From: Micromonospora yangpuensis
Lineage (GTDB): Bacteria; Actinomycetota; Actinomycetes; Mycobacteriales; Micromonosporaceae
Length of the DNA stretch: 64,000 nt
Assembly (NCBI RefSeq): GCF_900091615.1
Contig: NZ_FMIA01000002.1
Span: 4,216,001 to 4,280,000, forward strand
Reading direction: 5' to 3'
The notes under the pieces were generated by a model. That model was given only the letters and a program-made list of their open reading frames with translations. It ran no database searches and was not told the DNA's origin. Made by a program: the position numbers and the translations under genes. Shown here one piece after another: positions 4,380 to 25,961 of the stretch; the first letter of the stretch is position 1; every line of letters begins with the position of its first letter.

Positions 4380-4608
4380 CTACCCGGTGCGCTCCGGCCA
4401 CAACTCGGCGACCAGGCGGTGCGCGTCGCGGGCGATGGCGGTGCCGAGGTCGGGCACTGACCCGGACACACCGAGCACGTTGAGCGCCAACTCGGTGTAG
4501 CGGGCGGCCATCTGCTCCACCGACAGCGGCCCGTCCGGGCGATACCACCGCGCCACGCCACTACACATCTCCAGCAGCACCCGGCGCGCCACGTCCGGCG
4601 CCCGGAGG
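4380..4608 (-). pseudogene. TetR-family regulator, C-terminal remnant
   Basis: The minus-strand frame ending at 4380 reads as the C-terminal helices of a TetR/AcrR regulator of the fatty-acid/acyl-CoA type (ARRVLLEMCSGVARWYRPDG, then LSVEQMAARYTELALNVLG). No HTH domain is present. The similarity stops near 4600, where plus-strand acyl-CoA synthetase sequence begins. The frame nominally continues to 4658, but that extension is antisense to the other fragment. This is a stump left by a deletion or rearrangement. Confidence 0.7.
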
Positions 4609-4902: not shown

Positions 4903-5126
4903 CAAGCCAAGACTAGCGCCCGACACCCTTTCTGCACGTCAGAGCACATTCTTGGCAAGCAACGACAAGCCCGAGAATACTACTTTTCGCAACAAGTGGG
5001 TCAGAGCCCGACCAGCCGGGCCTCCAGGCCGGCGTACTCATCCCCAACGCCGCAGGCTCTTCTACCTGCGGCGCCTTGATGACCTGATCATCCGCTCTTC
5101 CGGCGCCTTCGGTTTCTCTGCAGGCC
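4903..5126. other. intergenic, with hairpin downstream of the DUF4304 gene
   Basis: No convincing gene. The sequence is visibly richer in A/T than the rest of the window. A perfect 9-bp stem (5048-5056 with 5065-5073, 8-base loop) lies about 54 bases beyond the stop of the leftward DUF4304 gene and is its probable transcription terminator. Confidence 0.5.
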
Positions 5127-5753: not shown

Positions 5754-5990
5754 CCGCAACTCCCTCCACGCTCGCCGCGACGGCGACGCGTAGATGACCA
5801 TCCTGCGGCGGCCAAGGCATCGCCGATGGCGCCGACGTCAATGACGATTCCATACTCGTCCGCAGTAGTGACCGAACGGTAAGCATCCCATGGTTTCTCG
5901 AACTGGCTGCGGCCACTCCACGAAAGGAGGCACTCATGACCCTCCCACTCGACTTCACGATTGCGGATTATCCCGCATCCCGGAGCGCCC
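5754..5990 (-). other. possible remnant of a small gene upstream of the DUF4304 gene
   Basis: One minus-strand frame here reads in a protein-like way (GRSQFEKPWDAYRSVTTADE, then YGIVIDVGAIGDALAAAGW). It then dissolves into an Arg/Gly-rich tail that overlaps the start of the DUF4304 gene. There is no clear ribosome site and no family I recognise. It could be the N-terminal part of a frameshifted gene or a chance frame. Confidence 0.25.
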
Positions 5991-6209
5991 ATGAATCAGT
6001 ACCAAACAGATTTCCCCGATGACCCGGACAACGAATACAATCACGTCGGCAACCGACAGAAGAGAATCGGAAAATATGCACCACCCACCGTGATCACCCC
6101 ATCTGATCCACCCACAATGAATCCGGCTGCCGCCCGTGTCCTTCTGCGGATAGTCCTCTCCGCATATCGGCGGCTGCCGCACCCCGACAGTGAGGAACGA
6201 CCACCATGA
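5991..6209 (+). CDS. small hypothetical protein coupled to the recombinase
   Basis: A 72-residue hydrophilic protein (MNQYQTDFPDDPDNEYNHVG...) with an acidic N-terminus and a short basic C-terminal segment 'AARVLLRIVLSAYRRLP'. ATG 5991 is preferred to an in-frame TTG at 5961 because a CGGAG site precedes it. Its stop overlaps the recombinase ATG by four bases (ATGA), so the two are probably co-translated. Small proteins in this position may act as directionality or accessory factors, but nothing in this sequence proves that. Confidence 0.55.
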   Translation: MNQYQTDFPDDPDNEYNHVGNRQKRIGKYAPPTVITPSDPPTMNPAAARVLLRIVLSAYRRLPHPDSEERPP

Positions 6210-7923
6210 ACTGGAACACCCATCGCTCCGGCGAACCGCCGGCCCGGATGCGTTTCGCCTTCTACGGGCGGGTCTCGACAGAGGACCAGCAGGACCCGGA
6301 AGCGTCACGGGCCTGGCAACTGTCCCGGTCACGAGCCCTGATCGAACCGGCCGGCGGACACGTGGTCGAGGAGTTCTTCGACGTCGGCCTGTCCCGCTCA
6401 CTACCCTGGAAACGGCGCCCTCAGGCAACCCGGCTCCTCGCGGCGCTGCGAGATCCCCGGCGAGGCTTCGAGGCGGTGGTGATCGGCGAGCCACAGCGCG
6501 CCTTCTACGGCAACCAGTTCGGGTTGACGTTTCCCCTGTTCGAGCACTATGCCGTCGGGCTGTGGGTGCCGGAGGTCGGTGGAGCCGTCGACCCGGGCAG
6601 CGACGCCCACGACCTCGTCATGGCCCTCTACGGCGGCATGAGCAAAGGCGAACGCAACCGCATCAAGGTCCGCGTCCGTAGCGCCATGGCCGCCCAAGCC
6701 GCAACCGAAGGCCGGTTCCTGGGCGGAAGCCCTACGGCTACCGCCTCGCCGACGCCGGCCCACACCCCAACCCCGCAAAAGCAGCCGACGGCCGACGGCT
6801 GCACCGCCTCGAACCCGACCCACTCACCGCAGACGTCGTCCGACGCATCTACACCGAGTACCTCGCCGGACACGGCTTCTTCGCCATCGCCGAAGGACTC
6901 ACCCGCGACGGCATCCTCTCCCCCTCGGCCTACGACCCGCGCCGCAACCCACACCGCACCACCACCGCGTGGAGCAAAAGCGCCGTCCGGGTCATCCTCA
7001 CCAACCCCCGCTACACCGGCAGGCAGGTCTGGAACAAGCAACGCAAGACCGAGATCCTCATCGACGTCGACGACGTCGCCCTCGGACACGAAACCAAACA
7101 ACGCTGGAACCCCAGCGACGAATGGATCCACTCCGCAGCCCTGGCCCACGAACCCCTCGTCAACGACGACACTTTCAACCGCGCCCAGACCCTGATCGCC
7201 GCCGCCGGCAGACGCCCCGACGGAATCAGGAAACCCCGGGCCAGCAGCCGCAACTACGTCCTGTCCGGCCTCCTGCACTGCGGCATCTGCAAACGCCGCA
7301 TGATCGGCAGCTTCAACAACGACCGCAACAACTACCGCTGCACCTACGCCGCCGAGTACGCCGACGCCAACCGCGTCGCCCACCCCCGCAGCGTCTACGT
7401 CCGCGAAGACCACATCCTCGAACAACTCGACCCGTGGCTCGCCAAGGTCCTCTCACCCGACCGACTCACCGACACCGTCCAGGCCATGACCGACGCCCAA
7501 CACGACGACACCGACCACCAGGCCATCGCCGCAGCCCGGGAAACCCTCGCCACCTGCACCACCCGACTCGACCGCTACCGCGCCGCCCTCGACACCGGCG
7601 CAGACCCCGCAGTCGTCACCCGATGGATCGCCGACGTCCAAGCCGAACAGGTAACCGCCGAAGCCGACCTACGCCGCCTCACCGGACGCCGCACCATGAA
7701 CCCCGACGAGATCCGCCACATCGTCAAGAGCCTGGGAAACATCACCAACGTGCTCCGCGACGCAGACCCCAAAGACAAGGCACGGATCTACCGCGAACTA
7801 GGGCTAACCCTGACCTACCGGCCAACCACCCGGATCGTGTCCGCTCAGGCAACCCCAAGTGGATCATGTACTAGTTTGTGTCCGAGGGGGGACTTGAACC
7901 CCCACGCCCTATACGGGCACTAG
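6206..7923 (+). pseudogene. large serine recombinase/integrase, frameshifted
   Basis: The first frame (6206 to about 6727) encodes the serine recombinase catalytic domain; the nucleophile is Ser24 in 'FYGRVSTEDQ', followed by 'YGGMSKGERNRIKVRVR'. Near 6726 the frame shifts by one base: the expected 'GRFLGG-KPYGYRLADAGP' continues only in the next frame. That frame carries the recombinase domain (PF07508-like), a zinc ribbon (LSGLLHCGICKRRM...YRC) and a coiled-coil segment, ending at 7923. The C-terminal codons 'CPRGDLNPHALYGH' are read from the antisense of a tRNA-Leu gene, as in integrases whose attachment site is that tRNA. A single-base deletion inactivates the gene unless it is a sequencing error or programmed shift. 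Confidence 0.85.
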
Positions 7924-7962
7924 CACCTCAAGCTAGCGCGTCTGCCATTCCGCCACCCGGAC
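7879..7962 (-). tRNA. tRNA-Leu (anticodon GAG)
   Basis: An 84-nt class II tRNA on the minus strand. The acceptor stem pairs GTCCGGG (5', 7962-7956) with CTCGGAC (3', 7886-7880). The anticodon stem CTAGC/GCTAG encloses loop TTGAGGT, giving anticodon GAG. A long variable arm and the T-arm 'GGGGTTCAAGTCCCCC' are present. CCA is not encoded. Its 3' half overlaps the 3' end of the serine recombinase on the opposite strand, marking it as the integration site. Confidence 0.95.
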
Positions 7963-8316
7963 CTACTCGCGCAGCCTACCCTGTCGGCGACAGGTGATTT
8001 CACCGCCTGTCGCCGGCCCCGGAAAGCCGCACGGGGCATTACTGTACACGTCCCGGTGTGGCCGCGCACATCGCCTTCAGGCCTTCCGGACGGTGTCGGA
8101 TCCGTCGTGCGCCCACGGCGCACCGGCACCGGTTCCGGCGCCCAATCGGGGTGCGTTCGTGGCCGAAGGCCTACCCGCCCGGACGCTGCGAGCGGGTCTA
8201 CCCCCGCCCGTTCACCGCCGACGAACAGGACGTCGTTGGCGACGTGGACGGCCATCGCCGGTAGCACGGGTGGGTTCCCCCGCCTCGTCAGATCACAGCC
8301 ACCGCGAGGCAGGTTC
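7963..8316. other. intergenic, no supported gene
   Basis: About 350 bases between the tRNA-Leu 5' end and the SDR operator region. Open frames here lack ribosome sites and family similarity. The tRNA promoter must lie at the left end, reading leftward. I see nothing else. Confidence 0.4.
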
Positions 8317-10462: not shown

Positions 10463-12478
10463 ATGGGTCGGGTGTCCCACCCCTCTCCCCTGACCGCCGC
10501 CCAACGTCGAGCGCTCGCCCTGCGTACCTCCGGTGACCTTGCCCAGGCGCGCGCCCTGTTGACCGACGTCATCGAGTCGGTTCGGCCCCGGTACGGAGGG
10601 GACCACGCCGAGGTGCTGAGCACCGCCCGGCTGCTGGCCCAACTGCACCGGGAGGCGGACGATCCGGCGGCGGCCCGGCGGGTCCTGGAGGAGGCGTTCG
10701 CCGACGGCGAGCGGATCCGGGACCTGGCGGACCCGCTGATGGTGGCCATCGCCTTCGATCTTGCCTCGGTCGCCGGGGAGCTGGGCAACCGGCACGAGGC
10801 CCGCCGCAACTACACCCGGGTGGCCACCCACGGGCCTGCCGCCTTCGGGACGGACCATCCACTGGTCCGGGCCGCCCGCGACTACCTCGGCGACGCCGCA
10901 CCGACCGTCCCGGTGAGCGACCCCGGTCCCCCACCGCCGGCGCTGCCCGAGCCGCCTCGGACCGCGCCCGGGTCCACTGTCGACTCCGGCGTCACGGCCG
11001 GTTCCGGGTCGCCGCAGGTCTCGTCGTCCTGGGCACCGCAACCCGGCACCGGGGCGTGGGCCGACGACCGGCTCAGCCCCGGCACGCCACCCCATCCGGC
11101 CACCGGACCTCAGGAGTCCTCCGGACCTCAGCCGCCCACCGAATCGCCGCCGCCCGCCGGACCGCTACCGCCTGCGGTACCGCCTCGGCCCTATCCGGTG
11201 CCGTCGCCCCCGACCGGCGCGACACCGGTACACGGCGCGGCGCTACCGATCTCCCGCCCGCCGACGATGCCGGCCGGGCCGGGCCGGACCGTCTCCGCAC
11301 CACCCGTCCCCGCACCCCCTGTTCCCGCACCGCCCGTCAACGCACCGCCCGTCAACGCACCGCCCGTCAACGCACCGCCGGTCCTCGCACCGCCCACCGG
11401 CACACCGTGGGTCAGCACGGACGCCGTCGCCGCGCCGCCCGTCAAGGCAGACGCCGTGGCCGCTCCACCCGTCGGCCCGGACGCCGTCGTCGCACCGCCA
11501 CCGCGTCCCGGCCCCGCACCGGGACCGGGCCAACCGCCGGTGGTCCGGCAGCCGGACTGGGACGATCCGACGGTCCAGGTGACACAGATCGGGCCGTTGC
11601 TGGCCGAGGAGCAGGGCCGGCCCGATGCCGCGTTCCCGGCTGCGGAGCAGACCGTCGCTCCGGTCAGTGGGATACCAGTTTCCGGGGAGCGGGTACCACC
11701 CCGGGAGGCGACCGGGCCGCCGTGGCACCGCTCCGCGCCCCGGCCGCCGATCGATCCGCCCGCTGCGACGACGCAGGCAGCACCGCCGGGCCCGGTACCG
11801 CACGGGCCAGCGGCACCACACGGGCCAGCGGCAGGGCACGATCCCGAACCCCGGGCGGGAGCCGGTGCGGCACCGGAGTCGCACCAGACGAAGATCGGCC
11901 CGGCATCAGACCGGGCGGCCGAGACACCGATGGTGGCCCCGCCGAGCCGGCAGGCCCCGGTGCCGTACCCGGGTGTGGCGCCGGTGGAGTCGTACCCGGG
12001 TTATTCGGCGGAGCCGGTGGCGGCGCAGGTGCCGGGGGGTCGCAGCCGGGCGATGGTGGTGCTGGCCGTGGCCGGGACGGTGCTCGCGGTGGCGGCGGTG
12101 GTCGGGGTGGGGGTGCTGGTCGTCGGTGGCGGGCCGGCGGCGGGTCCGCAGCCGGGCGCGGGGGCGTCGGTGGGCGCGCCGGTGACCAGCGGGCCGCCAC
12201 CGGAGGATCTCCGGTTACGTGACGATTCGACCACGATCACGATCACCTGGTCGGATCCGACCGACGGTACGGTGCCGTTCATGGTGGCCGGTGGCCGGTC
12301 CGGCAAGCCGCTCGGGGTGATGGCCACCGTGGACCCGGGTGAGACGACGTACACGGTGAACGGGCTGAACTCCAGGATGGACTACTGCTTCACGGTGCTC
12401 GCGGTGTACTCCACCGAGGCGTTCGCCACCTCGGGTCAGGTGTGCACCGAACGGCGCAGGACCAGCCCGCCGGGTTGA
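10463..12478 (+). CDS. TPR / proline-rich / fibronectin-III single-pass membrane protein
   Basis: A predicted 671-residue protein. Residues about 10-150 form TPR-like helical repeats (LTAAQRRALALRTSGDLAQA, 'ARLLAQLHREADDPAAARRVLEEA'). A long Pro/Ala-rich, low-complexity linker follows, including tandem 'APPVN' units. A hydrophobic segment (AMVVLAVAGTVLAVAAVVGV) then precedes a single fibronectin-III-like domain (ITITWSDPTDGTVPF ... 'YCFTVLAVYS'). The likely topology is TPR domain inside and Fn3 outside. ATG 10463 is chosen; GTG 10472 is an alternative and neither has a strong ribosome site. It heads the block leading to the MoxR/DUF58/transglutaminase-like genes. The function is unknown. Confidence 0.72.
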   Translation: MGRVSHPSPLTAAQRRALALRTSGDLAQARALLTDVIESVRPRYGGDHAEVLSTARLLAQLHREADDPAAARRVLEEAFADGERIRDLADPLMVAIAFDLASVAGELGNRHEARRNYTRVATHGPAAFGTDHPLVRAARDYLGDAAPTVPVSDPGPPPPALPEPPRTAPGSTVDSGVTAGSGSPQVSSSWAPQPGTGAWADDRLSPGTPPHPATGPQESSGPQPPTESPPPAGPLPPAVPPRPYPVPSPPTGATPVHGAALPISRPPTMPAGPGRTVSAPPVPAPPVPAPPVNAPPVNAPPVNAPPVLAPPTGTPWVSTDAVAAPPVKADAVAAPPVGPDAVVAPPPRPGPAPGPGQPPVVRQPDWDDPTVQVTQIGPLLAEEQGRPDAAFPAAEQTVAPVSGIPVSGERVPPREATGPPWHRSAPRPPIDPPAATTQAAPPGPVPHGPAAPHGPAAGHDPEPRAGAGAAPESHQTKIGPASDRAAETPMVAPPSRQAPVPYPGVAPVESYPGYSAEPVAAQVPGGRSRAMVVLAVAGTVLAVAAVVGVGVLVVGGGPAAGPQPGAGASVGAPVTSGPPPEDLRLRDDSTTITITWSDPTDGTVPFMVAGGRSGKPLGVMATVDPGETTYTVNGLNSRMDYCFTVLAVYSTEAFATSGQVCTERRRTSPPG

Positions 12479-12641
12479 CCGATCGCCGCGTCCGGGGTGT
12501 ACACGCAGGGTGTCCGGCGGCGGACGGTGCGGGTTTCCCCACTGTGGAGTGGGCCATATGATGGCACCCGGCTCCGGGCGGGTCGGACCGCCACCGGAGG
12601 CGTCATCCGCCACGACGCACGACACGGGAAGGCAGTCGGCT

Positions 12642-15266
12642 GTGGCCACGATCGACGAGAGCGAGAAGGCCGGGGCCGGCGGCTCACGGCCTGGCCGGCG
12701 ACTGCGCGGTGGCCTGGTGACCATCGGTACGGTGGGCGCTTTGCTCGCCGCGATGGGGCTGACCGTGTTGGGTCTGGGTGCCGCCGACAACGCGGTGGCC
12801 AGCTTCGACGCTTCCTCCTGGTTGTGGAGTTCGTCGCGCAGCGAACTGGCCCGGGTCAACGGGGTCACCGCCCGGGTGGACACCCGGATGGAGGTGCCCG
12901 ACGCCCGGCGGCATCCGGTGCAGGTCACCCAGACCGACCGGCAGCTGATCCTGCGGGACCTGCACACCGGCCAGGTCAGTTCGCTGGACCTGGCGACGTT
13001 GCAGATCACCGCGACCACGCCGACGACGCCGGGGCTGGGGGTCAGTGTCGCCCTGCACGAGGAGGCCGCGTTCGTGGTCGACGCCGTGCAGGGGGTGGTG
13101 CGGCAGCTCGACCCCCGATCGTTGACCCCGGTCGGGGAGCCGGTGCGGTTCCCGCCGGGGATCACCGGTGGCTCCTTCGACGGTGAGGGCCGGCTCTGGA
13201 TCGCGGTGCCGAGCGAGGGCACGGTGTCGGCGATCACCGCCGCGGAGTTACCCGCGACGCCGGGTGAGGCCGGTTCGGGGTTGAGCCCGAAGCAGGTGGC
13301 CAGCTACGACGTCGCCGAGGGCAGCCACGAGCTGGTGCTGTCCACCCTGGACGAGGGGGTCGCGGTGCTGGACCGGACCCGGGGTGAGCTGGTGACGGTG
13401 CGGGGTGGCAGGACCGAACGGGTCAGGTTGGAGTTGACCGGGGCGGGCACCCTGCCGGCGCGGACCAGCGGGCCGGTGGTGCCGGTCACCGTCGTGGGCG
13501 AGCGGCGGGTGCACGTGGTCGACGGGGCGCGGGTGCGGCAGTTCACGGTGCCGGGTCGGGGTGACCGGCTCAGTCCGGTGGTCGCCTGGTCCGGCCGGTT
13601 CTACGCCGCCGACGAGGCCACCGGGACGGTCTACTCCTTCGACGCCGACGGGCAGCTGGTGCAGACGGTGCGCACCCGGGGCATGTCCGGGCCGCTGGAG
13701 CTGGAGGTCCGGGAGAACCACCTGTTCATCAACGCACCGGAGTCGGCGCGGGCCCGGGTGGTCAACGACCGGCACGAGGTGCGTGAGGTCGACAAGTACG
13801 CCAACGACGTGCTCGGTGGGGATCCGCCGGAGGAGCCGCCGCCGCCCCCTCCGCCGCCGCCGAAGCCGAAGGTGGGCAAGCCGGGTGCGCCCCGGGACGT
13901 GACCGCCGCCGCCGGGAACGCCCAGGCCCGGGTGAGCTGGCGGCCGGCCGCGGCCAACGGCGCCGAGATCGTCCGGTACGTGGTGCGGGGTGGCGGCCAG
14001 CGGCTGGAGGTGGGTGCCAACCAGCGGGCGGTGGAGATCACCGGGTTGACCAACGGTGAGACGTACCGGTTCTCCGTGCACGCGGTCAACGCCAAGGGCG
14101 ACGGTCCGGACCGGGAGAGCAACCCGGTCACCCCGACCGCCGAGGTGCCCGATCCGCCGGCGGGTGTCAGCGCCCGGGAGCGGCCCGACGGTACGGTGCT
14201 GGTGACCTGGCCGGCGGCGGACGGGCAGGGCAACGTGATCGGGTCGTACACGGTGACCGCGACCTCGGCCGGGGCGAACGCCCCGGTGGGTACGGCGAAG
14301 AAGACGGAGCTGGTGGTGCCGGCCGGGGAGCTGGAGTACGGCACCCAGTACGCGTTCACGGTGGTGGCGGTGACCGAGCGGGGTGCCGGTTCGAAGGCGT
14401 CGCCGGTGAGCAACACGGTGGTGCCGTTCACCGCGCCGGGGCAGCCGGGTGAGCTGACCGCGTCGACGGTGCCGGACCGGCCGGGCACCGTCACGGCCCG
14501 CTGGTCGCCGGCGCCGGCCAACGGCCGGCCGGTGACCGGGTACCGGGTGGACGTGGCGGGTCGGCAGAGCGTGGTCACCGACCCGCAGGTCACCGTGGAC
14601 TCCCTCGGTGACGGCCAGAACGTGACGGTGACCGTGGCGGCGGTCAACGAGGCCGGCGAGGGACCGACGGCGACCACCACGGCCCGGACGGTGGCCGAGC
14701 CCCGGGTCACGGTGACGGGTACGTCGGCCACCGCCACCTCGGCCACGGTCAGCTTCACCGTGGACGCCGGCGGCGGGCAGGCCACCTGTTCGGTCAGCGC
14801 CCCGGGCACGGCGACGACGTCGGGGTCCTGCACGAAGCTGACAGTGCCGGAGCTGAAGCCGGGCACGGCGTACACGTTCACCGTCACGGCGTCGAACGCC
14901 GCGGGCAAGGGTACGGCCACCCGCAAGCAGAGCACTCCGGCCCTGTACGGCATCGCCACCTGCAAGAACGGCTCCGAGCCGGAGCAACGCGACTACTGCG
15001 ACAAGGATCGTGACGGGCGCAACGGCAACGAGGTCTTCGAGGTGCCCCGGCAGGACGACGACCGGCAGGCCGGCTGGGCCAAGCCTGGCACCCGGCTGAA
15101 GGCGTACTGCCGGAAGCAGGGCGAAGAGGTGTACGCCTACGTCTACAACAACGACAAACGCAGCACCTGGTGGGTGCAGGTCGAGTACCGGGGGAAGAAC
15201 TACATCCCGTGGGCCTGGCTCAACCTGGAGGGCGGCGACAAGATCAACGTGCTGCCCACCTGCTGA
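12642..15266 (+). CDS. beta-propeller and multi-fibronectin-III cell-surface protein
   Basis: About 874 residues from GTG 12642 (GGAAGG upstream); in-frame ATGs at 12558 and 12561 are alternatives. One N-terminal membrane segment (LVTIGTVGALLAAMGLTVLG) is followed by an extracellular region with propeller-like repeats ('VTQTDRQLILRDLHTGQVSSLDL', 'GEGRLWIAVPSEGTVS'). A poly-proline hinge (EEPPPPPPPPPKPK) leads to at least three Fn3 domains and a fourth Fn3-like module with Cys residues. The C-terminal roughly 110-residue domain is rich in Cys, Trp and Tyr ('STWWVQVEYRGKNYIPWAWLNL') and resembles an SH3-like fold. It is probably a wall-facing partner of the ATPase system encoded downstream, 26 bases before the MoxR gene. 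Confidence 0.75.
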   Translation: MATIDESEKAGAGGSRPGRRLRGGLVTIGTVGALLAAMGLTVLGLGAADNAVASFDASSWLWSSSRSELARVNGVTARVDTRMEVPDARRHPVQVTQTDRQLILRDLHTGQVSSLDLATLQITATTPTTPGLGVSVALHEEAAFVVDAVQGVVRQLDPRSLTPVGEPVRFPPGITGGSFDGEGRLWIAVPSEGTVSAITAAELPATPGEAGSGLSPKQVASYDVAEGSHELVLSTLDEGVAVLDRTRGELVTVRGGRTERVRLELTGAGTLPARTSGPVVPVTVVGERRVHVVDGARVRQFTVPGRGDRLSPVVAWSGRFYAADEATGTVYSFDADGQLVQTVRTRGMSGPLELEVRENHLFINAPESARARVVNDRHEVREVDKYANDVLGGDPPEEPPPPPPPPPKPKVGKPGAPRDVTAAAGNAQARVSWRPAAANGAEIVRYVVRGGGQRLEVGANQRAVEITGLTNGETYRFSVHAVNAKGDGPDRESNPVTPTAEVPDPPAGVSARERPDGTVLVTWPAADGQGNVIGSYTVTATSAGANAPVGTAKKTELVVPAGELEYGTQYAFTVVAVTERGAGSKASPVSNTVVPFTAPGQPGELTASTVPDRPGTVTARWSPAPANGRPVTGYRVDVAGRQSVVTDPQVTVDSLGDGQNVTVTVAAVNEAGEGPTATTTARTVAEPRVTVTGTSATATSATVSFTVDAGGGQATCSVSAPGTATTSGSCTKLTVPELKPGTAYTFTVTASNAAGKGTATRKQSTPALYGIATCKNGSEPEQRDYCDKDRDGRNGNEVFEVPRQDDDRQAGWAKPGTRLKAYCRKQGEEVYAYVYNNDKRSTWWVQVEYRGKNYIPWAWLNLEGGDKINVLPTC

Positions 15267-15291
15267 CGACCGAGGAGCCCTGACCCCAGAC

Positions 15292-16287
15292 GTGAACACG
15301 CACGAGCCGCTCGGTCAGCCGGAGGTGCAGGGCTTCGCCGCCCTGGCCGCCCGGCTGGCCGAGAACGTCAACTCGGTGGTGCTGGGCAAACCACAGGTGG
15401 TCCGGCTGGCGTTGACCGCCCTGTTCGCCCAGGGTCACGTGCTGCTGGAGGACGTACCCGGGGTGGGCAAGACGACCCTGGCCCGGGCGGTCGCCGCGAC
15501 CGTGCGCGGCGAGTGGCGGCGCATCCAGTTCACCCCGGACCTGCTCCCCTCCGACGTGGTCGGGGTGACCATCTTCAACCAGGCCACCCGGGGTTTCGAG
15601 TTCCACCCCGGCCCGGTCTTCGCCAACATCGTCATCGCCGACGAGATCAACCGGGCGTCGCCGAAGACCCAGTCGGCGCTGCTGGAGGTGATGGAGGAAC
15701 GCACCGTGACCGTCGACGGGGTGCGGCACCCGGTGCCGCAACCGTTCCTGGTGGTGGCCACCCAGAACCCGGTGGAGATGGACGGCACGTACCGGCTGCC
15801 CGAGGCGCAACTGGACCGGTTCCTGGTGAAGCTGTCGGTGGGCTACCCGGACGAGGCCGTCGAGGTGGAGGTGCTGCGGGGGGCCACCGTCCGCTCCCCC
15901 GAGGCGCTGACGGCGGTGACCGACACGGCCACCGTCGGGGAGATGGTCCGGATGGCCCGCCGGGTGCACATCGCCGAACCCCTCTACGCGTACGCGGTCC
16001 GGCTGGCCGCCGCGACCCGAACCCACCCGCACGTGCGGGTCGGGGTCAGCCCCCGGGGGGTGATCGCGTTGACCCGGGCCGCCTGCGCGTACGCCCTGAT
16101 CGACGGCCGGGGCTGGATCATGCCGGAGGACCTGAAGGCGCTCGTCGAACCGGTCTTCGCCCACCGGCTGCTGCTCACCCCCGAGGCGCAGGTGCGGGGC
16201 GTCAGCGCCGCAGAGGTGCTGCGGGAGGCGGTCGCCTCGGTGCCGGTGCCGCTGCCGTCGGGGCAGCCGGCCCCGTCGCGGAGCTGA
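15292..16287 (+). CDS. MoxR-family AAA+ ATPase
   Basis: A 331-residue cytoplasmic AAA+ ATPase of the MoxR type. Walker A is 'EDVPGVGKTTLA', Walker B is 'IVIADEINRASPKTQSALLE', and sensor 1 is 'VVATQNPVEMDGTYRLPEAQ', followed by 'LDRF'. The C-terminal AAA lid is complete. MoxR ATPases act as chaperones for metal insertion or protein-complex assembly, usually with vWA or DUF58 partners. The GTG start sits 26 bases after the propeller/Fn3 gene, and the DUF58 gene begins 9 bases after its stop, so these are one transcription unit. Confidence 0.93.
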   Translation: MNTHEPLGQPEVQGFAALAARLAENVNSVVLGKPQVVRLALTALFAQGHVLLEDVPGVGKTTLARAVAATVRGEWRRIQFTPDLLPSDVVGVTIFNQATRGFEFHPGPVFANIVIADEINRASPKTQSALLEVMEERTVTVDGVRHPVPQPFLVVATQNPVEMDGTYRLPEAQLDRFLVKLSVGYPDEAVEVEVLRGATVRSPEALTAVTDTATVGEMVRMARRVHIAEPLYAYAVRLAAATRTHPHVRVGVSPRGVIALTRAACAYALIDGRGWIMPEDLKALVEPVFAHRLLLTPEAQVRGVSAAEVLREAVASVPVPLPSGQPAPSRS

Positions 16288-16295
16288 CCGGCGGC

Positions 16296-17477
16296 GTGGG
16301 GATCACCGCCCGGGGTGCCGGGTTGCTCGTCGCTGCCGTCGCGCTGCTGGGCGTCGGCTTCCGGTTCGCGTACCCGGAGTTGACGGTGCTCGGCGCGGCG
16401 GCCGGCGCGGCCCTCGGGCACGCCCTGCTCACTGCGGCCTGGCGGCCCCGGCTGGTGGTACGCCGGCACGCCGACCCGGACCGGGTGGCCCGGGGCGAAC
16501 CGGCCCGCATGGCGGTGACCGTGGCCAACACCGGGCGGCTGCGGGCGGCGAACCTGGTGGCCGAGGACCGGTGCGGTGACCGGGTGGTGCCGGTGCCGCT
16601 GCTGCGGTTGCGCCCCGGCCGGGACACCCGGGTGGGCTACGACGTGCCGACCGGCCGGCGGGGGGTGGTGCCGGTGGGGCCGCTGCGGGTGACCCGACGC
16701 GACCCGCTCGGGCTGGTCTCGCTTACCCGCCCGTACGGCGACACCGTGCCGGTCTGGGTGTACCCGCGGGTGCATCCGCTGACCGCCGCGCCCACCGGTG
16801 CCGGGCGCAGCCTGGACGGCCGGGTCGACGCGGTACCGCAGGGTTCGATCACCTTCGACTCACTGCGGGAGTACGTGATCGGCGACGAGTTGCGGCGGGT
16901 GCACTGGCGCACCAGCGCCCGGGTCGGTGAGCTGATGGTCCGGGAGAACGTCGACACCAGCCTGCCCCGCATCGTGGTGGTGCTGGACAACCGGGCACCG
17001 GCCCATCCCGACCTGGTCGACGGGGTGGCCGAGTCGTTCGAGGCCGCCTGTGAGGCCGCCGCCTCGGTGGTCACCGCGGCGGTGCGGGCCGACCTGCCGG
17101 TGGTCCTGCTGCTGGTGGCCCCGGACGCGACCGTACTGCCGACGCCGGCCGACGATCGCGGACCCACCGGCGGCGGACCGCTGGACCTGCTGGCCGCCGC
17201 CGACCTCGACCGGGGCGACGGCGCGGCGGGGCTGCGGACCGCCACCGCCCGGCTGCGCCAGGAACGTCTCGGCGACACCCTGGTCTTCCTCACCGGCCCC
17301 GGCGGCCGGGCCGACCTGGGGTTGGTCGGGGCGTTGCGCGGCGGCTACCGGTCGGTGGTGGTGGGGGTGCTCGGTGTCGGGCAGCCGACGGCGGCCTCGG
17401 CGACCGGCCCGCTGCTGATCGAGGCCGCCGACGCCGCCCGGTTCGCCGCCGAGTGGGACCGGATCCGCCGATGGTGA
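16296..17477 (+). CDS. DUF58 domain-containing protein
   Basis: A 393-residue protein with two N-terminal hydrophobic stretches (GAGLLVAAVALLGVGFRF, 'LTVLGAAAGAALGHALL'), a beta-rich region ('RRGVVPVGPLRVTRRDPLGL'), and the DUF58 core 'FDSLREYVIGDELRRVHWRT' then 'SARVGELMVRE'. A vWA-like domain follows (RIVVVLDNRAPAHPDLVDGV). DUF58 proteins are the standard partners of MoxR ATPases. GTG 16296 is the first in-frame start after the MoxR stop. Its own stop overlaps the next start (ATGGTGA), so translation of the transglutaminase-like gene is coupled. Confidence 0.9.
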   Translation: MGITARGAGLLVAAVALLGVGFRFAYPELTVLGAAAGAALGHALLTAAWRPRLVVRRHADPDRVARGEPARMAVTVANTGRLRAANLVAEDRCGDRVVPVPLLRLRPGRDTRVGYDVPTGRRGVVPVGPLRVTRRDPLGLVSLTRPYGDTVPVWVYPRVHPLTAAPTGAGRSLDGRVDAVPQGSITFDSLREYVIGDELRRVHWRTSARVGELMVRENVDTSLPRIVVVLDNRAPAHPDLVDGVAESFEAACEAAASVVTAAVRADLPVVLLLVAPDATVLPTPADDRGPTGGGPLDLLAAADLDRGDGAAGLRTATARLRQERLGDTLVFLTGPGGRADLGLVGALRGGYRSVVVGVLGVGQPTAASATGPLLIEAADAARFAAEWDRIRRW

Positions 17478-19714
17478 CCGGCACCGCGCTGGCCCGTGGC
17501 CTGCGGGCGACGGTGTTGCCGCTGGTCCTGGTCGCCATGGTCGGCCTCGCCGGGGTGGTGCTCGGCCGGGTCTACGCCGGGCCGCTGCTGACCCGGCTGA
17601 TCCTCGGCGCGGGCATCGGGGCGGTGCTGGTCAGCCTCGCCGCCCGCCGGCTGCGGTCCTGGCTGGTCGCCCCGCTGTCGGTGCTGGCCCTGGCCGTCTT
17701 CACCGCCTGGTCGTTGCGCCTGGCCGCCGGGCACGCCGAGGTGCCCGGTGGGCTGGCCGAGGTGAGCCTCGACGCGGCCCGCAACGGCATCCCCCGGCTG
17801 TTGACCGCGATGATCCCGGTGGAACCGGCCCCGGACACCGTGCTGGTGCCCCTGGTCGCCGCCTGGCTGGCCGGGTTGACCGGCGCGGAGGTGGCGCTAC
17901 GTGCCGGCCGGGTGCTGCTCGGCTACCTGCCGCCGGCGCTGCTCTTCGCCGGGGCGGTGTACGTGGTGGGCCCCAACGCCGACGCGGCGGTCTGGCCGAC
18001 CGTGGCGTTCACCGCCGTCGCCGCCGTCGGCCTGGCCGTACCCGGTGGCCGGGCCACGCCGACCACCGGGGTGGCCGCCACCGGATCGGACGACGGGATC
18101 CGCGCGGCGGTGCGGGCCCGGCTCGCGGTCACCTCGGCCGCCGGGGTGGCGGCGGTGGTCGCGGCCACCGCGCTGCTCGGCCCGGCGGTCGCCGCCCTGG
18201 TCGACCGGCGGCCGGTGGACCCCCGCCGGTACGTGGAACCGCCCCGGGTGGAGTCGCTCGACGAGAACCCGCTGATCCGGATCTCCGGATGGGCGTTGAA
18301 CCCGCAGCAGCGGCTGCTGGAGGTCCGCACGACTACTCCGACGACCCGGGAGGTCCGGGTCCGGTTGGCCGTGCTCAGCGACTACGACGGGGTGACCTGG
18401 CGGGTCGGCGCGACCTACCGCAACGCCGGGCGGATCCTGCCGGTCACCGACCCGGCCGTGCACAGCATCGTCGAACCGGTCCGGCAGGAGATCACCGTGG
18501 TGGACCTCACCGGCCGGTTGCTGCCGGCCGTGGCCACCCCGCGAGAGGTCACCGGGGCGCGGGTGGCCTACGACCCGGCGACCGGCACGCTGATCCGACC
18601 GGAGGGCCTCAGCGCCGGGCTGCGGTACACGGTGGAATCGGCCCGGGAACGTCCGGACGCGAACCTGCTCGGCCCGGCGCAGGTGCCCGCGGGCGACGAG
18701 GTGGCCCGGGTGCTGCGGGTCGCCGACGGGGCACCGGAGCCGTTGACCCGGCTGGCCGGCCAGTTGGCCGAGGAGAACAGCGCACCGTACGCCCGCGCGG
18801 CGGCCATCGAACGGTTCCTGGCCGAGCACTACCGGGTGGTGGCGGACGCCCCGAGCGGGCACGCGTACCCGAATCTGGCCTTCTTCCTGTTCGGGCCCCG
18901 CGACGGCGGCGGGCAGCGCGGTACCTCCGAGCAGTTCGCCGCCGCGTTCGCGGTGCTGGGCCGGCTGACCGGGCTGCCGACCCGGGTGGTGGTGGGTTTC
19001 CGGTCCACCGGCGACGGTCCGGTCCGGGCCGCCGACGCGATCGCCTGGCCGGAGGTGCTCTTCGACGGCCTCGGCTGGGTGCCGTTCGACCCGATGCCCC
19101 GCCCCGACGACGAGCCGCGTCCGGTGGAGCCCGACGTCCGCCCGCAGCCGGAGGAGACCCCGCCGCCGGACGTGCCGGAGCCGTCCCTGGCGCCGACCCC
19201 GACCCCACCGCCGGTGGCCGCACCGGGAGCCGACGACACCACCGGTGGCGTACCGGTGCCGGTGCTGGTCGCCGGCGGCGTGGGTGCCCTGTCGGCGGTG
19301 CTGGCGGGCCTGCTGCTGGTGCTGCTCGTGCTGCGGCGGGCCCAGCGGCGGACCCGGCTGGGCCATGGCGACCCGGCGCAGCGGATCACCGGGGCGTTCC
19401 GGGAGGTCACCGACGCGCTGCGGTTGGCCGGCCAGCCGGCCGGCGGCGACCTGGCCGCCACCGAGGTCGCCGCGCACGCCCGCCGGGTCGCCGCGCGGGT
19501 CCCGGTCGCAGCCGGCACGTCACCGCCGTCCGTGGACGAGCTGGCCGAACTGCTCAACCGGACGGCCTTCGCCCCCGGCACCGCGACCGAGGCGCAGGCC
19601 GACCGGGCGGCGACGGTGGCCGGCGGGTACGTCGACGCGCTGCGCGCGGCCCGCCCGTGGTGGCGGCGCCTGCTCTGGTCGGTGCACCCCGGCCCGCTGC
19701 GCTGGCATCGGTAG
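17471..19714 (+). CDS. TgpA-like membrane transglutaminase-fold protein, catalytic residues lost
   Basis: A 747-residue TgpA/DUF3488-type protein: about six to seven N-terminal membrane helices, a large extracellular transglutaminase-like domain, a Pro-rich linker, one more membrane helix (VPVLVAGGVGALSAVLAGLL) and a cytoplasmic DUF4129-like tail. Active relatives have 'GYCEQFA' and 'DAHAW'. Here the corresponding motifs read GTSEQFA (Ser486 in place of Cys) and 'DAIAW' (Ile524 in place of His), with 'GWVPFDP' conserved. Catalysis by the classical Cys-His-Asp triad is therefore impossible. It overlaps the DUF58 gene and ends the five-gene block. The start could instead be GTG 17474. Confidence 0.88.
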   Translation: MVTGTALARGLRATVLPLVLVAMVGLAGVVLGRVYAGPLLTRLILGAGIGAVLVSLAARRLRSWLVAPLSVLALAVFTAWSLRLAAGHAEVPGGLAEVSLDAARNGIPRLLTAMIPVEPAPDTVLVPLVAAWLAGLTGAEVALRAGRVLLGYLPPALLFAGAVYVVGPNADAAVWPTVAFTAVAAVGLAVPGGRATPTTGVAATGSDDGIRAAVRARLAVTSAAGVAAVVAATALLGPAVAALVDRRPVDPRRYVEPPRVESLDENPLIRISGWALNPQQRLLEVRTTTPTTREVRVRLAVLSDYDGVTWRVGATYRNAGRILPVTDPAVHSIVEPVRQEITVVDLTGRLLPAVATPREVTGARVAYDPATGTLIRPEGLSAGLRYTVESARERPDANLLGPAQVPAGDEVARVLRVADGAPEPLTRLAGQLAEENSAPYARAAAIERFLAEHYRVVADAPSGHAYPNLAFFLFGPRDGGGQRGTSEQFAAAFAVLGRLTGLPTRVVVGFRSTGDGPVRAADAIAWPEVLFDGLGWVPFDPMPRPDDEPRPVEPDVRPQPEETPPPDVPEPSLAPTPTPPPVAAPGADDTTGGVPVPVLVAGGVGALSAVLAGLLLVLLVLRRAQRRTRLGHGDPAQRITGAFREVTDALRLAGQPAGGDLAATEVAAHARRVAARVPVAAGTSPPSVDELAELLNRTAFAPGTATEAQADRAATVAGGYVDALRAARPWWRRLLWSVHPGPLRWHR

Positions 19715-19821
19715 CCGACCCGCCGGCCGCCGCGCCCGGTTACCGGCGAACCGGTCCCGACCGCCCCGCGCGGGTGCTAGGACGGACGGGTGGCATCCGG
19801 TCGGTGGTGGGGACCGCCGCC

Positions 19822-21033
19822 GTGACGACCGGATCGGGCGGTCCCGTCGCGGCGGCCGGTGCGACGACCCGGGCGACCTTCCTGGAGCTCTTCTTCGATC
19901 TGGTCTTCGTCTTCGCGCTCACCCGGATCTCCGCCCGCGCCTTCTCCGACCTGGCCCTGGAGACCGGCGGCAACGTGGGCTGGGCCCCGGTCACCGGTGG
20001 CGGGAAGACGCTGCTGCTCCTGCTCGCCCTCTGGTCGGTCTGGCAGGGCACCGCCTGGACCACCAGCCGCTACGACCCGTACCACAGCTGGCTGCAGACC
20101 ATGGTGATCGTCGCGTTGGTCTGCAGCATGGTGATGGGGGTGGCCATCCCGCACGCCTTCAGCGCCACCGGGTTGGCTTTCGCCGTCGCCTACGTGGCCG
20201 CCCAGCTGTCCCGGCCGTTGATCCTGCTGCTGGCGGTGCGGGTACGCCGGTACCGGGGCCTGAAGCTGCGGATGCTGATCGGCTACGGGTGCTGCGCGGT
20301 GCCGTGGATCGTCGGCGCGCTGCTGCCGGTGCCGTGGCGGGTGATCCTCTGGGCGGCGGCCCTGGCGGCCGAGTACCTGTGGTCCCGGCTGGGCTGGCCG
20401 GTGCCGGGCCTGGGCCGGTCGACGACCAACCGGTGGCAGGTCGTCGGGGAGCATCTGGCCGAGCGGTACCAACAGTTCTTCCTCATCGCCCTCGGCGAGA
20501 CGGTGCTGGTCACCGGCCTGGCCTACAGCGGCGGCAATTACGACCTGCCGCGGACCGCCGCCTTCGCGGCGGCGCTGGTGACCTCGGTGCTGCTGTGGCG
20601 GATCTACTTCCAGCGGGCCGGTCAGATCCTGGCCGAGGCGGTGTCGAAGGCCGCCCACCCGGCCACCATCGGCCGGTCGGCGGCCGACACCCACCTGCTG
20701 ATGGTGATCGGGGTGGTGGCCACCGCGATCGGCTACGAGTTGAGCATCGAGCATCCGTTGGAACGCGCCGAGACGGCCTGGGTGGTGCTGATCGTCGGCG
20801 GGCCGGTGCTGTTCCTGCTCGCCCGGGCCCGCTTCGAGTACGAGGTCTTCGGCCGGGTGTCGCCGGCCCGGTGGGTCGCCGCCCTGGCCCTGGTGGCGCT
20901 ACTGCCCCTGCTGCTGCGTGCCCGGCCGCTGCTGTCCAGCGCGGTGACCGCCGCCGTACTGCTCGCGGTGGCCCTCGCCGACGCCCGCCGAGCCCGGGGC
21001 GCGCCACCGGAGCGGGCGGCCCCACCGTTCTGA
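19822..21033 (+). CDS. low-temperature-requirement A (LtrA) family membrane protein
   Basis: About 403 residues with roughly ten hydrophobic helices and the LtrA signature at the N-terminus, 'RATFLELFFDLVFVFALTRI'. Later blocks 'HLAERYQQFFLIALGETVLV' and 'LWRIYFQRAG' also match the family. LtrA was named from a Listeria cold-growth mutant; its biochemical role is unknown. GTG 19822 is chosen (GGGGA about 9 bases upstream); GTG 19804 or 19807 would add a few residues. It stands 108 bases after the preceding operon on the same strand and converges with the PAP2 gene. Confidence 0.85.
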   Translation: MTTGSGGPVAAAGATTRATFLELFFDLVFVFALTRISARAFSDLALETGGNVGWAPVTGGGKTLLLLLALWSVWQGTAWTTSRYDPYHSWLQTMVIVALVCSMVMGVAIPHAFSATGLAFAVAYVAAQLSRPLILLLAVRVRRYRGLKLRMLIGYGCCAVPWIVGALLPVPWRVILWAAALAAEYLWSRLGWPVPGLGRSTTNRWQVVGEHLAERYQQFFLIALGETVLVTGLAYSGGNYDLPRTAAFAAALVTSVLLWRIYFQRAGQILAEAVSKAAHPATIGRSAADTHLLMVIGVVATAIGYELSIEHPLERAETAWVVLIVGGPVLFLLARARFEYEVFGRVSPARWVAALALVALLPLLLRARPLLSSAVTAAVLLAVALADARRARGAPPERAAPPF

Positions 21034-23057: not shown

Positions 23058-25961
23058 TCACCCGTTCGGGAACAGGTTTCCGTAGTCGGCGTAGGCCATG
23101 GCCACGTCGGCCTGGGCCCAGAACCGGTGGTAGTTGAACGTCGGTTCCGGCCCACCGTCGAGGTACGCCTGCACCTTCGGCCAGTCCGGGTCGGACTTGT
23201 AGAAGGACCGGATGTCGAGGAAGCTCTTGCCGGCGGTGATCGGGTCACCGTTGGGCATGGTGCCCGTCCAGCCCGGCGGGACGTAGAGGCCCTGACCGGT
23301 CGAGGCGTTGTAGGTGTCGTCGAAGCGCTGGTAGTCGCCACGCTTCTCCGGCCTCGACACGCCCTTGGCGTCGCTGGCCGCGTGCAGCGCGTCCAGCAGC
23401 CCCTTGGCGGTGGTCTTGGCCGCCGTGTTGCCCGACTTGGCCGCGTACGCGATCAGGGTCCGGGCGTAGGCCGCGGCGACGCCGACGTCCTGGCCCTTCA
23501 CCGTGACCTCGACGTGCAGGTTGGTGTTCGGCTGCGGGTTGGTCGGGTTCCAGTTGTTGGGCTGGCCGGTCCACTTCATGTCCGACGGGATGGACCAGTT
23601 GGTGCCCAGCGTGGTGTTGGCGATGGCCCACGGCGCCCACTTGTCCAGCAGCGCCTTGGCCTTGGCGTTGCCGGTCTGCAGGTACAGCTCCGCGATCCGC
23701 TGCATCGACCAGACCTGCATGCCGAACCACTGGTTCGACGGCGGGTCCTCGTACACCGGGTCGACGTCGTAGAACATGCCGTAGAAGGTGGCGGTGCCGG
23801 CCGGGGGCTGGCCGTAGTTGCCGCCCCAGCTGTTGGTCGCGCCACCGGCGATGCCGCCCTCGGCCGACTGCAGCCAGGTGTAGAACTCCAGCTGCCGCTC
23901 GAAGCTCTTGGTCCAGTCCGCCGCCGCGGTCGGCGACTTCGGGGCCAGCTCCGGGGTGTTGGTGAGCGCCCAGGCCGCGAACGGGTTCTGGTAGCCGAAG
24001 TGGCTGTGACTGGAGCCGATCCGCCACGACCAGTTCTGGTTGGCCTCGTACGCGCCACCCCAGGCGTAGTACCAGGACATCAGGTAGTGCGCGGAGTCCT
24101 TGCCGTTGGCGGCCGGGCAGGCGGTGGCCCCGACACAGTTGCCGATCTTCTTGAAGTACTTGTCGAACATGGCGTACCGCAGGTAGTCGCCCATCTTGGC
24201 GGCCTTGGCCACGGTGGCGGCCACGTCGGCCTGCTTGTTCTGCGCCTTGGCCCAGGTCAGCGCCCAGTACGCGGCCTGCACGGCGCGGGCGTCGGCGTCC
24301 GGGGCGTTGGTGTACTTCCACTGCTTGGCCGGGGCGTTGGCCTCCTTGACGAACAGGTCCAGGTAGCCGTTGCGCCCGCCGTGGGCGAAGGTGTCGCAGG
24401 AGGGCTGCGGGATGGTCTCCCACACCGACTCCTGGGCGCCGCGCTGGAAGGTGTTGATGTACGCCGGGCGGGTGGTGCCGTCGCCGCACCGGCCGAAGCC
24501 GTAGACGTTGTCCACGTCCAGCAGCCAGTGCATGCCGTAGATGTCACCGGTGCCGTAGGTGGACTGCAGCTCGCTGCGCAGCGGGTCCTTGCCGACCGGG
24601 ACGTTGGCCTCCAGGGCCGACGGGTACCGGTTGGGCAGCGGGTGCTCGGCGGCGTACTGGGCGTCCCCGGCCGAGCCGGCGGTGGCCTGGTCGGCGTGCG
24701 ACGGGATGATGTACTTCTCCATCACCGTCCAGGCGTTGTTGAACGGCGCCCAGTTCTGGGTGACCCGGCCGTAGTGGGCCTCCAGCCACAGCCAGAAGCT
24801 GAACGCCTCGGAGGTGGTCTCGTGGCCGTGGTCGGGGGCCTCCACGATGAGCGTCTCGATCGAGTGGTACGGCACGCCCTCGGGGCTGAAGTACCCCGAG
24901 TTCTTGATCTTGCCGTACTGCTCCAGGAACCGCTCGGTGTAGACGTTGTCCCCGCCACCGGGTACGTCGTTGTCGATCTCGGTGGCGGTGATGGCCAGCG
25001 GGGCGTACCCGGTGGCCGAGGCGGTGATCGTGGCGGTGCCACCCACGGTGTCGGCGTCCTCGGCGGCGGCGACCGTGACGTTGGCCCCGGTGCTCCAGTT
25101 CGCCGTGGTCAGCGTCACCGACGTCGGGGAGACGGTGATGTCGCTGTCACCGGTACGGGTCAGGGTGACCGGCACGTTGCCCGCCGGCGCGCCACTGAGC
25201 TTGAGGTTGACCGAGGCGGTGCCGCCCTCGTTGACGCTCACCGAGGAGGGGGTGGCCACCAGCCGCGGCCCGGAGGCGGGGCTGACGGTGAACGCCTTCT
25301 CCGACACCGCGCTCAGGTTGGCGTTGTCGTAGGCCTTGGCCTGGACGGTGTACGCCCCGGCCGGCAGGTCCTCCAGGGTGTAGGCGTACGGCGCGGTGGT
25401 GTCGGTGTTGACCAGCAGGCCGTTGCGGTAGAACTCGACCTTGCTGATCGTGCCGTCCTCGTCGGCGGCGGTGGCCGTCAGCGGCACGTCCGCCGGGGCC
25501 ACGAACGGCCCGGCCGGCACGGTGAGGTTGACCGTCGGCGGCTTCTGCGCGGCGCCGCCGCAGGTGACCCCGTTGACCGAGAAGGAGGTCGGCTTCGGGT
25601 TGCTGCCGGTGTGGGAGCCGTTGAAGCCGATGCTGGTCGAGGCGCCGGTGGCCAGGTTGCCGTTGTAGGACTCGTTGGTCGCGGTCACCTCGTTGCCGGA
25701 CTGGCTGAACCTGGCCGACCAGCCCTGGACGACCCGCTGGCCGCCGGGGAAGGCGAACTTCAGGGTCCACCCGTTGATCGGGTCGCCGAGGTTCTTGATG
25801 GTGACGTTGGCGGTGAAGCCGTTGCTCCAGTCGCTGGTGGCGTAGACCACGTCGCAGGCGGGGGCGGCCTGCGCGGCGCCGGCGGGCAGGGTCACCCCGC
25901 CGACGACCAGCGCGGCGGCGGCGAGCATCGCCAGGGGGCGACGTCTTGCCTTGAGTCTCAT
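23058..25961 (-). CDS. secreted GH48 exo-cellulase with N-terminal CBM2
   Basis: A 967-residue secreted reducing-end cellobiohydrolase. Residues 1-32 are a Sec signal (cleavage near AQA-AP). A cellulose-binding CBM2 covers about 33-135 (CDVVYATSDWSNGF to 'NGVTC', with the terminal Cys pair). A Big/Ig-like module spans about 140-228, and a Calx-beta-like module about 232-332 ('SVNEGGTASVNLKLSGAP'). The GH48 catalytic domain runs from about 338 to the end, with the general-acid motif HETTSEAF at 380-387 and repeated Trp-rich substrate sites. Two CebR-like operators lie 236-351 bases upstream, implying cellobiose induction. A strong terminator follows. Confidence 0.95.
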   Translation of the reverse strand: MRLKARRRPLAMLAAAALVVGGVTLPAGAAQAAPACDVVYATSDWSNGFTANVTIKNLGDPINGWTLKFAFPGGQRVVQGWSARFSQSGNEVTATNESYNGNLATGASTSIGFNGSHTGSNPKPTSFSVNGVTCGGAAQKPPTVNLTVPAGPFVAPADVPLTATAADEDGTISKVEFYRNGLLVNTDTTAPYAYTLEDLPAGAYTVQAKAYDNANLSAVSEKAFTVSPASGPRLVATPSSVSVNEGGTASVNLKLSGAPAGNVPVTLTRTGDSDITVSPTSVTLTTANWSTGANVTVAAAEDADTVGGTATITASATGYAPLAITATEIDNDVPGGGDNVYTERFLEQYGKIKNSGYFSPEGVPYHSIETLIVEAPDHGHETTSEAFSFWLWLEAHYGRVTQNWAPFNNAWTVMEKYIIPSHADQATAGSAGDAQYAAEHPLPNRYPSALEANVPVGKDPLRSELQSTYGTGDIYGMHWLLDVDNVYGFGRCGDGTTRPAYINTFQRGAQESVWETIPQPSCDTFAHGGRNGYLDLFVKEANAPAKQWKYTNAPDADARAVQAAYWALTWAKAQNKQADVAATVAKAAKMGDYLRYAMFDKYFKKIGNCVGATACPAANGKDSAHYLMSWYYAWGGAYEANQNWSWRIGSSHSHFGYQNPFAAWALTNTPELAPKSPTAAADWTKSFERQLEFYTWLQSAEGGIAGGATNSWGGNYGQPPAGTATFYGMFYDVDPVYEDPPSNQWFGMQVWSMQRIAELYLQTGNAKAKALLDKWAPWAIANTTLGTNWSIPSDMKWTGQPNNWNPTNPQPNTNLHVEVTVKGQDVGVAAAYARTLIAYAAKSGNTAAKTTAKGLLDALHAASDAKGVSRPEKRGDYQRFDDTYNASTGQGLYVPPGWTGTMPNGDPITAGKSFLDIRSFYKSDPDWPKVQAYLDGGPEPTFNYHRFWAQADVAMAYADYGNLFPNG

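Follow-up and report, generated by a model that had tools for sequence, protein, structure and literature searches.

The five-gene propeller–MoxR–DUF58 block of Micromonospora yangpuensis, with a catalytically dead TgpA-like protein, and its kinship to the bifidobacterial PFNA operon

MoxR ATPases are described as chaperones working with partner proteins in other systems. The PFNA operon of bifidobacteria is described as pkb2-fn3-aaa-atp-duf58-tgm, in some cases with prpC, a hypothetical gene and fha; downstream prpC and fha are published for some species only, and co-transcription is reported for B. longum GT15 only. The operon has been published as a bifidobacterium-specific sensor of host immunity that includes a transglutaminase, and the PFNA papers report adhesion, binding of TNF-alpha by an FN3 fragment and phosphorylation of MoxR by Pkb2. 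In the MoxR Proper (MRP) group, as defined, MoxR is followed by DUF58 and then by a transglutaminase-like gene. A 2025 review notes the likeness of the mycobacterial moxR operon to PFNA; as described there, MoxR lies next to DUF58, with a vWA membrane protein downstream and with neither an Fn3 protein nor TgpA (PMC12067865). MoxR–vWA–beta-propeller ternary conflict systems, mostly from other phyla, are described as combining a MoxR ATPase with a propeller fused to the vWA protein (Kaur et al. 2020, PMC7159879). Here we compare these systems with a block of five genes on the plus strand at positions 10463–19714 of a 64,000-nucleotide stretch (the window) of the Micromonospora yangpuensis genome, in which MoxR and DUF58 genes stand between two Fn3 proteins and a TgpA-like protein that has lost its catalytic cysteine and histidine.

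A sequence-only reading of the window had described this block, and sequence and Pfam analysis confirmed its make-up. Gene 1 (10463–12478, 671 aa) begins with a tetratricopeptide repeat (TPR) region (10499–10714; TPR_12, expectation value (E) 3e-13 at residues 99–166 of P0001, with weaker TPR models reaching residue 170), followed by a proline-rich linker and by a transmembrane (TM) segment with an Fn3-like tail (12035–12412), the latter scoring 24.3 bits with fn3 against a Pfam cut-off of 25. Gene 2 (12510–15266, 918 aa) has hydrophobic helices at residues 72–99 (12723–12806), which presumably anchor it in the membrane; predicted local confidence (pLDDT) is below 50 there, and the hydrophobic stretch is kept in aligned relatives. 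Next comes a beta-propeller, presumably extracytoplasmic, at residues 100–432 (12807–13805). It was assigned from the structure model and a second fold search, the first search, with the whole protein, having returned mainly Fn3-bearing chains, some of them with propellers (e.g. ROS1 and Sevenless). Four Fn3 domains follow at residues 458–812 (13881–14945; four stretches of Pfam fn3, E 2e-38), and the protein ends in a conserved Cys-containing domain at residues 813–918 (14946–15263), aligned in 12 loci and modelled with pLDDT below 50, for which Pfam reported no family. Gene 3 (15292–16287) encodes a MoxR AAA+ ATPase with Walker A and Walker B sequences, scoring 211.9 bits with AAA_3 vs 37.6 bits with bpMoxR. 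Gene 4 (16296–17477) is a DUF58 protein with a hydrophobic N-terminus and a conserved GDxLRRVHW-type motif, and gene 5 (17471–19714) carries the TgpA_N membrane domain (E 4e-15) and Transglut_core (E 6e-16) that characterize TgpA. The window thus has both the MRP order of MoxR, DUF58 and transglutaminase-like genes and an fn3-MoxR-DUF58-TgpA order on one strand. Membership in the MoxR–vWA–propeller conflict systems was rejected, because the propeller is not fused to a vWA partner: in the window it sits in a separate membrane-anchored protein (gene 2), and DUF58 is gene 4.

The triad positions of gene 5 were set by alignment to 6g49, the solved ectodomain of Pseudomonas TgpA, in which Cys, His and Asp are the catalytic residues. 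Homology to 6g49 is detected with E 0.001 for the window protein and 2e-10 for a profile of PFNA-type proteins. Although the ectodomains are homologous, Ser486 (18926–18928, +) occupies the Cys position and Ile524 (19040–19042, +) the His position, and of the triad the window keeps only Asp540 (19088–19090, +). Related loci with a TgpA frame number 74, three of which end before the Cys site; in the 71 readable ones the site holds Ser 70 times, Thr once and Cys never. At the His site, the third residue of a DAxAW motif, Tyr, Ile, Phe, Leu or Val prevails, L035 alone having His there, and the Asp site is sometimes Asn or His. Around the Cys site G484, T485, E487, Q488, F489 and A490 (GT-EQFAA) are invariant in 24 sequences, so the site is retained, though not as a thiol site. 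Moreover, the same genome has an intact MoxR–DUF58–TgpA copy at C2:4560.8–4565.7 kb, with GFCQQYA, HAW and FDATP at the corresponding motifs, which provides an internal control for the dead copy in the window.

The five genes are stably associated within the family. A scan with one genome per species gave 137 relatives of gene 2, and the results below refer to the best 80 of these 137 loci, all from Micromonosporaceae (60 Micromonospora, 10 Paractinoplanes, 4 Salinispora, 3 Actinoplanes, 2 Winogradskya and 1 Jidongwangia). For the genes present, the order and strand of the window are kept in 80 of 80 loci, in agreement with the proposal of the sequence-only reading that the five genes travel as one set. 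All five are found in 73 loci, and the other seven lack outer genes only, at contig ends. The gap before MoxR is 4–40 bases in the 63 measurable loci; an apparent gap of about 2.7 kb in 17 of the 80 was taken as a measuring fault, the match running through the stop that precedes the true start. One record named Nonomuraea sp. TT08I-71 (P0066) carries a Micromonospora-like copy with 77% identity and is perhaps mislabelled.

Across the class, the window TgpA found a match in 144 of 196 genomes; this search gave no match in the 16 listed genomes of family f2, which belongs to the same order as the window, and a further 32 genomes without a match lie outside that listing. From 53 of the 144 genomes we picked by hand 60 loci of up to 19 kb, taking mostly the best match in each genome and distributing the choice among families. 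Sorted by what stands at the Cys site, they comprise 33 Cys-less and 27 intact loci, and the two sets differ sharply in their neighbours. An Fn3/propeller gene occurs in the sampled DNA of 29 of 33 Cys-less vs 0 of 27 intact loci (28 of 33 in a first count with narrow profiles; a broader propeller profile raised this to 29 and still found none at intact loci), and a match to a single kinase query is present in 20 of 33 vs 0 of 27. His is also lost in 25 of the 33 Cys-less loci, and the Cys site may hold Asp, Ala, Gly, Thr, Gln or Glu. Since Cys is gone throughout the lineage sampled, an enzyme pathway is unlikely; here, too, the sequence-only reading, which had called the outer domain of the TgpA-like protein catalytically dead and had found a machine more plausible than an enzyme pathway, holds up. 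The intact blocks have the same three homologous genes in the same order but keep Cys and His, fall on a separate branch and show no Fn3, propeller, kinase or EccC-like match in the sampled DNA of any of the 27 loci. Several of them are neighbours of mraZ and rsmH (both confirmed with Pfam in L127 and L175, and only mraZ in L153), and a DUF3040 neighbour is common to L127 and the intact copy of the window genome.

The MoxR tree, which is independent of the TgpA sequence, separates the Cys-less from the intact loci by one branch, with a support (SH-aLRT, the Shimodaira–Hasegawa-like approximate likelihood ratio test) of 99 (57 rows), and the same single split returns with a support of 100 after addition of 14 Bifidobacteriaceae (71 rows). 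The DUF58 tree likewise parts the two kinds by one branch (SH-aLRT 99, 73 rows). Both are quick trees made without bootstrap, and loci without a usable protein were left out (L125, L147, L155, L157 and L172 for MoxR; L147, L155 and L157 for DUF58). On these trees the Cys-less block is one ancient lineage with one origin, and the association of its genes therefore rests on that origin and long retention rather than on repeated gains. L146 and L148, with Ser-His-Glu in place of the triad residues, group as a separate branch of the MoxR tree. Loss of the DUF58 metal ion-dependent adhesion site (MIDAS) was considered as a mark of the dead lineage and rejected, as no row of either kind has DxSxS at the aligned site.

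The converse search, starting from the propeller, gave a match in 65 of 196 genomes. Among the 50 matches of at least 100 bits, some of which share a genome, at least 38, a lower bound, have a TgpA match among those listed within 10 kb (same strand in 25, opposite strand in 13); seen from the propeller side, it is thus not the case that the gene usually lies apart from the block, an outcome that the sequence-only reading had named, for both Fn3 genes, as damaging to the idea of one system. Of the 12 remaining matches, three begin no more than 400 bases from a contig end, one lies 14 kb from TgpA with EccC, EccD and WXG100-like genes in between (L119, L239) and one lies 10.9 kb away; several of those left over are copies from family f16. 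Genomes of this family (L143, L145, L147–L149; genomes G049, G085, G177) carry many propeller and TgpA copies each, some in divergent orientation, and L147 has PKD domains. Taken together, the propeller/Fn3 protein, MoxR, DUF58 and dead TgpA are kept together across many families, as a lineage distinct from the intact block.

A further member of the set bears a cytoplasmic domain, TPR in the window and kinase in several relatives, on a related TM-Fn3 tail. Being proline-rich, the whole TPR protein was set aside as a query in favour of two parts of gene 1, its TM-Fn3 tail and its TPR region. Among the 60 loci, the TPR part matched only L118, from the same genus, which the tail matches as well. 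The tail further matches C-termini in L119–L123, L134, L144, L150, L151 and L152 (E 3e-26 to 6e-6), for instance the kinase tails of L120 (6e-25) and L119 (8e-25). It also matches a frame in L125 that is not a kinase (6e-7), and weaker hits fall on Fn3 proteins in L170 (6e-5) and L123 (6e-4). A kinase check covered eight of these ten C-terminal matches: by Pfam, L119, L120 and L150 have a kinase domain and L122 has a weak one, and the proteins of L134, L144, L151 and L152 match the kinase query. Given that its tail matches kinase tails, the TPR protein looks like a kinase-slot protein with a different cytoplasmic domain. In Bifidobacteriaceae frames the gene 1 tail found no match.

To place the PFNA operon relative to this lineage, Bifidobacteriaceae were identified by the Bifidobacterium 16S primer site alone, which is present in 0 of 394 genomes of the class sample and in 24 of 396 genomes of the order of G091 (one family, two genera). 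A PFNA-type TgpA profile matched 22 of these 24 genomes. Of the 21 genomes with PFNA-type TgpA, 20 have Ser and one has Gly at the Cys site; none has His at the His site, and in 18 Tyr fills the Asp site. A separate transglutaminase-fold protein with an intact Cys-His-Asp triad is present in five of the 21 and in G667 (the six genomes being G667, G756, G676, G422, G584 and G729); the TgpA profile search found no PFNA-type copy in G667. Kinase, Fn3, MoxR, DUF58 and TgpA follow one another in this order in all 14 loci sampled from the 21 genomes, with an Fn3 frame of 1799–2194 codons from stop to stop and a PP2C match in seven. In one bifidobacterial locus (L228) a single long open frame takes in both the Fn3 and the MoxR match, through either fusion or frame overlap. 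Other PFNA-type loci (L136, L137, L139, L166–L170) combine this core with a varying set of kinase, PP2C, FHA or RDD genes.

The N-terminal 450 residues of six PFNA-type Fn3 proteins align with the propeller profile from end to end, over 355 columns (probability 99.3, E 7e-21) and with the Micromonosporaceae propeller profile alone at a probability of 92.5 (E 5e-7). A profile of these six N-termini in turn matches the N-terminal part of all 14 Bifidobacteriaceae Fn3 frames (E 6e-75 to 3e-54). The connection is made by way of relatives, and the bifidobacterial propeller is therefore reached in two steps. As the MoxR and DUF58 proteins of the window and of Bifidobacteriaceae fall in the same Cys-less lineage, with the dead/intact split as one change, the PFNA operon is, judging from sequence kinship, a member of the same class-wide actinobacterial lineage as the window block. 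The two share the order of the last four genes, the dead TgpA, Cys-less-lineage MoxR and DUF58 and, via PFNA-type relatives, a propeller-like N-terminal domain of the Fn3 protein. They differ in gene 1, which in the window is a TPR-TM-Fn3 protein with no kinase domain in place of the Ser/Thr kinase Pkb2; in the absence of a phosphatase (prpC) or FHA gene directly downstream in the window; and in the Fn3 protein, which at 918 aa and with four Fn3 domains lacks the Ig/cadherin stretch of the approximately 2000-aa PFNA-type form (L166). The finding corrects the published picture of PFNA, since none of the 21 PFNA-type copies from the primer-identified Bifidobacteriaceae retains the Cys or the His. 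Among the titles and abstract openings listed by searches of open-access literature, a scope with subscription papers and preprints outside it, none deals with a dead triad or a link to type VII secretion.

We hypothesize that the block is the Micromonosporaceae form of an old actinobacterial module, a non-enzymatic MoxR-driven device that acts on a membrane-anchored propeller protein, and we give this reading even odds (a probability of about 0.5). MoxR would dock through DUF58 and spend ATP on changing the shape of the pseudo-TgpA across the membrane. In the wall space, the dead transglutaminase fold might then act as a binding pocket that grips or lets go of either the propeller/Fn3 protein itself or a strand that this protein offers, and the TPR or kinase protein could gate the device from inside. 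Such a device would move or assemble rather than cut or cross-link. An assembling or positioning role towards wall-facing Fn3 proteins, suggested by the sequence-only reading, would be one possible function. Several points weigh against this proposal. The 60 loci were chosen by hand, most of them among the top matches to a query that itself lacks the Cys, and the pairing arose once, so that 29 of 33 vs 0 of 27 are not independent events; indeed, independent-pairs statistics were abandoned, as they yield one pair only (p 1), and no significance is claimed. Four Cys-less loci (L119, L144, L146 and L176) have no partner in the sampled DNA, although that of L119 is a propeller gene 14 kb off. His is kept in 8 of 33 Cys-less loci, namely L146–L148, whose triad reads Ser-His-Glu, and five loci of the PFNA type in which Asp replaces the Cys. 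Furthermore, the propeller profile by itself reaches no Bifidobacteriaceae Fn3 frame at E 1. The pseudo-TgpA ectodomain was modelled poorly (mean pLDDT 60, mostly below 50 through the core), leaving the dead-fold pocket a proposed feature, and contact between the proteins and ATP-driven motion are what we infer.

The best-surviving alternative, itself doubtful, is that the module is an accessory of type VII (ESX/WXG100) secretion, in which the propeller protein and the MoxR device form a wall-side adaptor or gate for EccC-driven export, and which Micromonospora-like lineages keep unlinked or reuse. Indeed, in several relatives EccC-like, EccD or WXG100 genes adjoin the block, and an EccC-like gene is found in the sampled DNA of 8 of 33 Cys-less vs 0 of 27 intact loci, the three EccC queries coming from three of those eight. 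Beside the block of L119 lie an EccC gene of 688.9 bits, above the NCBIfam cut-off, EccD and a WXG100-like gene of 24.8 bits, under the Pfam cut-off. In L133–L135 and L152 an EccC-like gene immediately precedes the propeller gene, and L133 and L152 have FHA as well; in L136 EccC-like and WXG100 genes follow a PFNA-type operon; the L166 genome has them some 10 kb past TgpA; and in G033 and G084 the propeller gene adjoins an EccC-like gene, with one small frame between them in G084. These links are weakened by the scores of L133, L136, L152 and L168, which fall under the NCBIfam EccC/EssC cut-offs, although those are the best families there, and by the 25 of 33 Cys-less loci with no EccC-like gene in the sampled DNA. 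No secretion gene lies near the window block; the EccC-type genes of this genome are at C2:0.80 and 6.14 Mb and its WXG100 genes at 0.53 and 3.65 Mb. Likewise, WXG100 genes are not near the operon in the three Bifidobacteriaceae genomes tested. A small gene upstream of L133 resembles WXG100 by eye only. In L240 (G091) an EccC-like gene is followed by WXG100 genes of 97 and 142 aa, a 99-aa gene and a 1210-aa protein that is a candidate secreted substrate.

It is unlikely that the module is at heart a surface sensor or adhesin as published for PFNA, with Fn3 domains binding outside ligands, the kinase or TPR protein signalling and MoxR acting as a maturation chaperone. The published adhesion, TNF-alpha binding and Pkb2 phosphorylation of MoxR, together with the architecture and ancestry shared with PFNA, speak for this view, but it leaves retention of the dead TgpA fold unexplained, and the lineage spans Micromonospora, Salinispora, relatives of Actinoplanes and many further families, a spread that makes host cytokines unlikely as the general ligand. 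Very improbably, the Cys-less TgpA could still be an enzyme that uses Ser or another residue: Ser is nearly invariant at the site in Micromonosporaceae and common in Bifidobacteriaceae, and the eight His-keeping loci fit this idea, yet His is lost in the window, in the 25 other Cys-less loci and in 21 of 21 Bifidobacteriaceae copies, and other copies carry Asp, Ala, Gly, Thr, Gln or Glu in place of the Cys. That the five genes are mere neighbours without shared function is scarcely credible in view of an order kept in 80 of 80 Micromonosporaceae loci and shared, at four of the five slots, by all 14 Bifidobacteriaceae loci sampled.

A still broader version of the device hypothesis, put forward tentatively as possible, would have an actinobacterium-wide dead-transglutaminase MoxR device with a membrane-anchored eight-bladed propeller partner working at the wall side of type VII secretion-like export, PFNA being one of its branches and tgm no transglutaminase. 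With the module reaching Micromonospora, Salinispora and many other families, a host-specific story becomes a general question about an envelope machine, for which free-living laboratory hosts become available for testing and type VII secretion offers one testable context. Within the M. yangpuensis genome, the live/dead pair (C2:4563 kb vs the window) allows one to ask what MoxR–DUF58 does when its partner cannot catalyse.

Downstream of the block, an LtrA-family membrane gene (19804–21033, +) lies 89 bases past gene 5 on the same strand and is followed by PAP2 (−) and DUF3159 genes. LtrA was set aside as a sixth member, its relatives occurring in 25 of the 80 loci and, among those listed, at varying distances (~0.4 to 5 kb) beyond TgpA. 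Elsewhere in the window, a GH48 cellulase with CBM2 and a bacterial Ig domain (23058–25961, −) lies beside a GH1-family gene (26870–28360, +). At 331–4345, phosphoenolpyruvate (PEP) mutase-family and MmgE/PrpD genes beside an ScfR-type regulator likely form a methylcitrate-cycle set. The region 4001–8000, where GC content falls to 0.66, holds a resolvase-domain gene (6206–7195) and tRNA-Leu(gag) (7878–7962, −), which suggests an integrated element; a tRNA-linked attachment site in 3900–8300 was not accepted, the one 22-base direct repeat there matching at 82% only.

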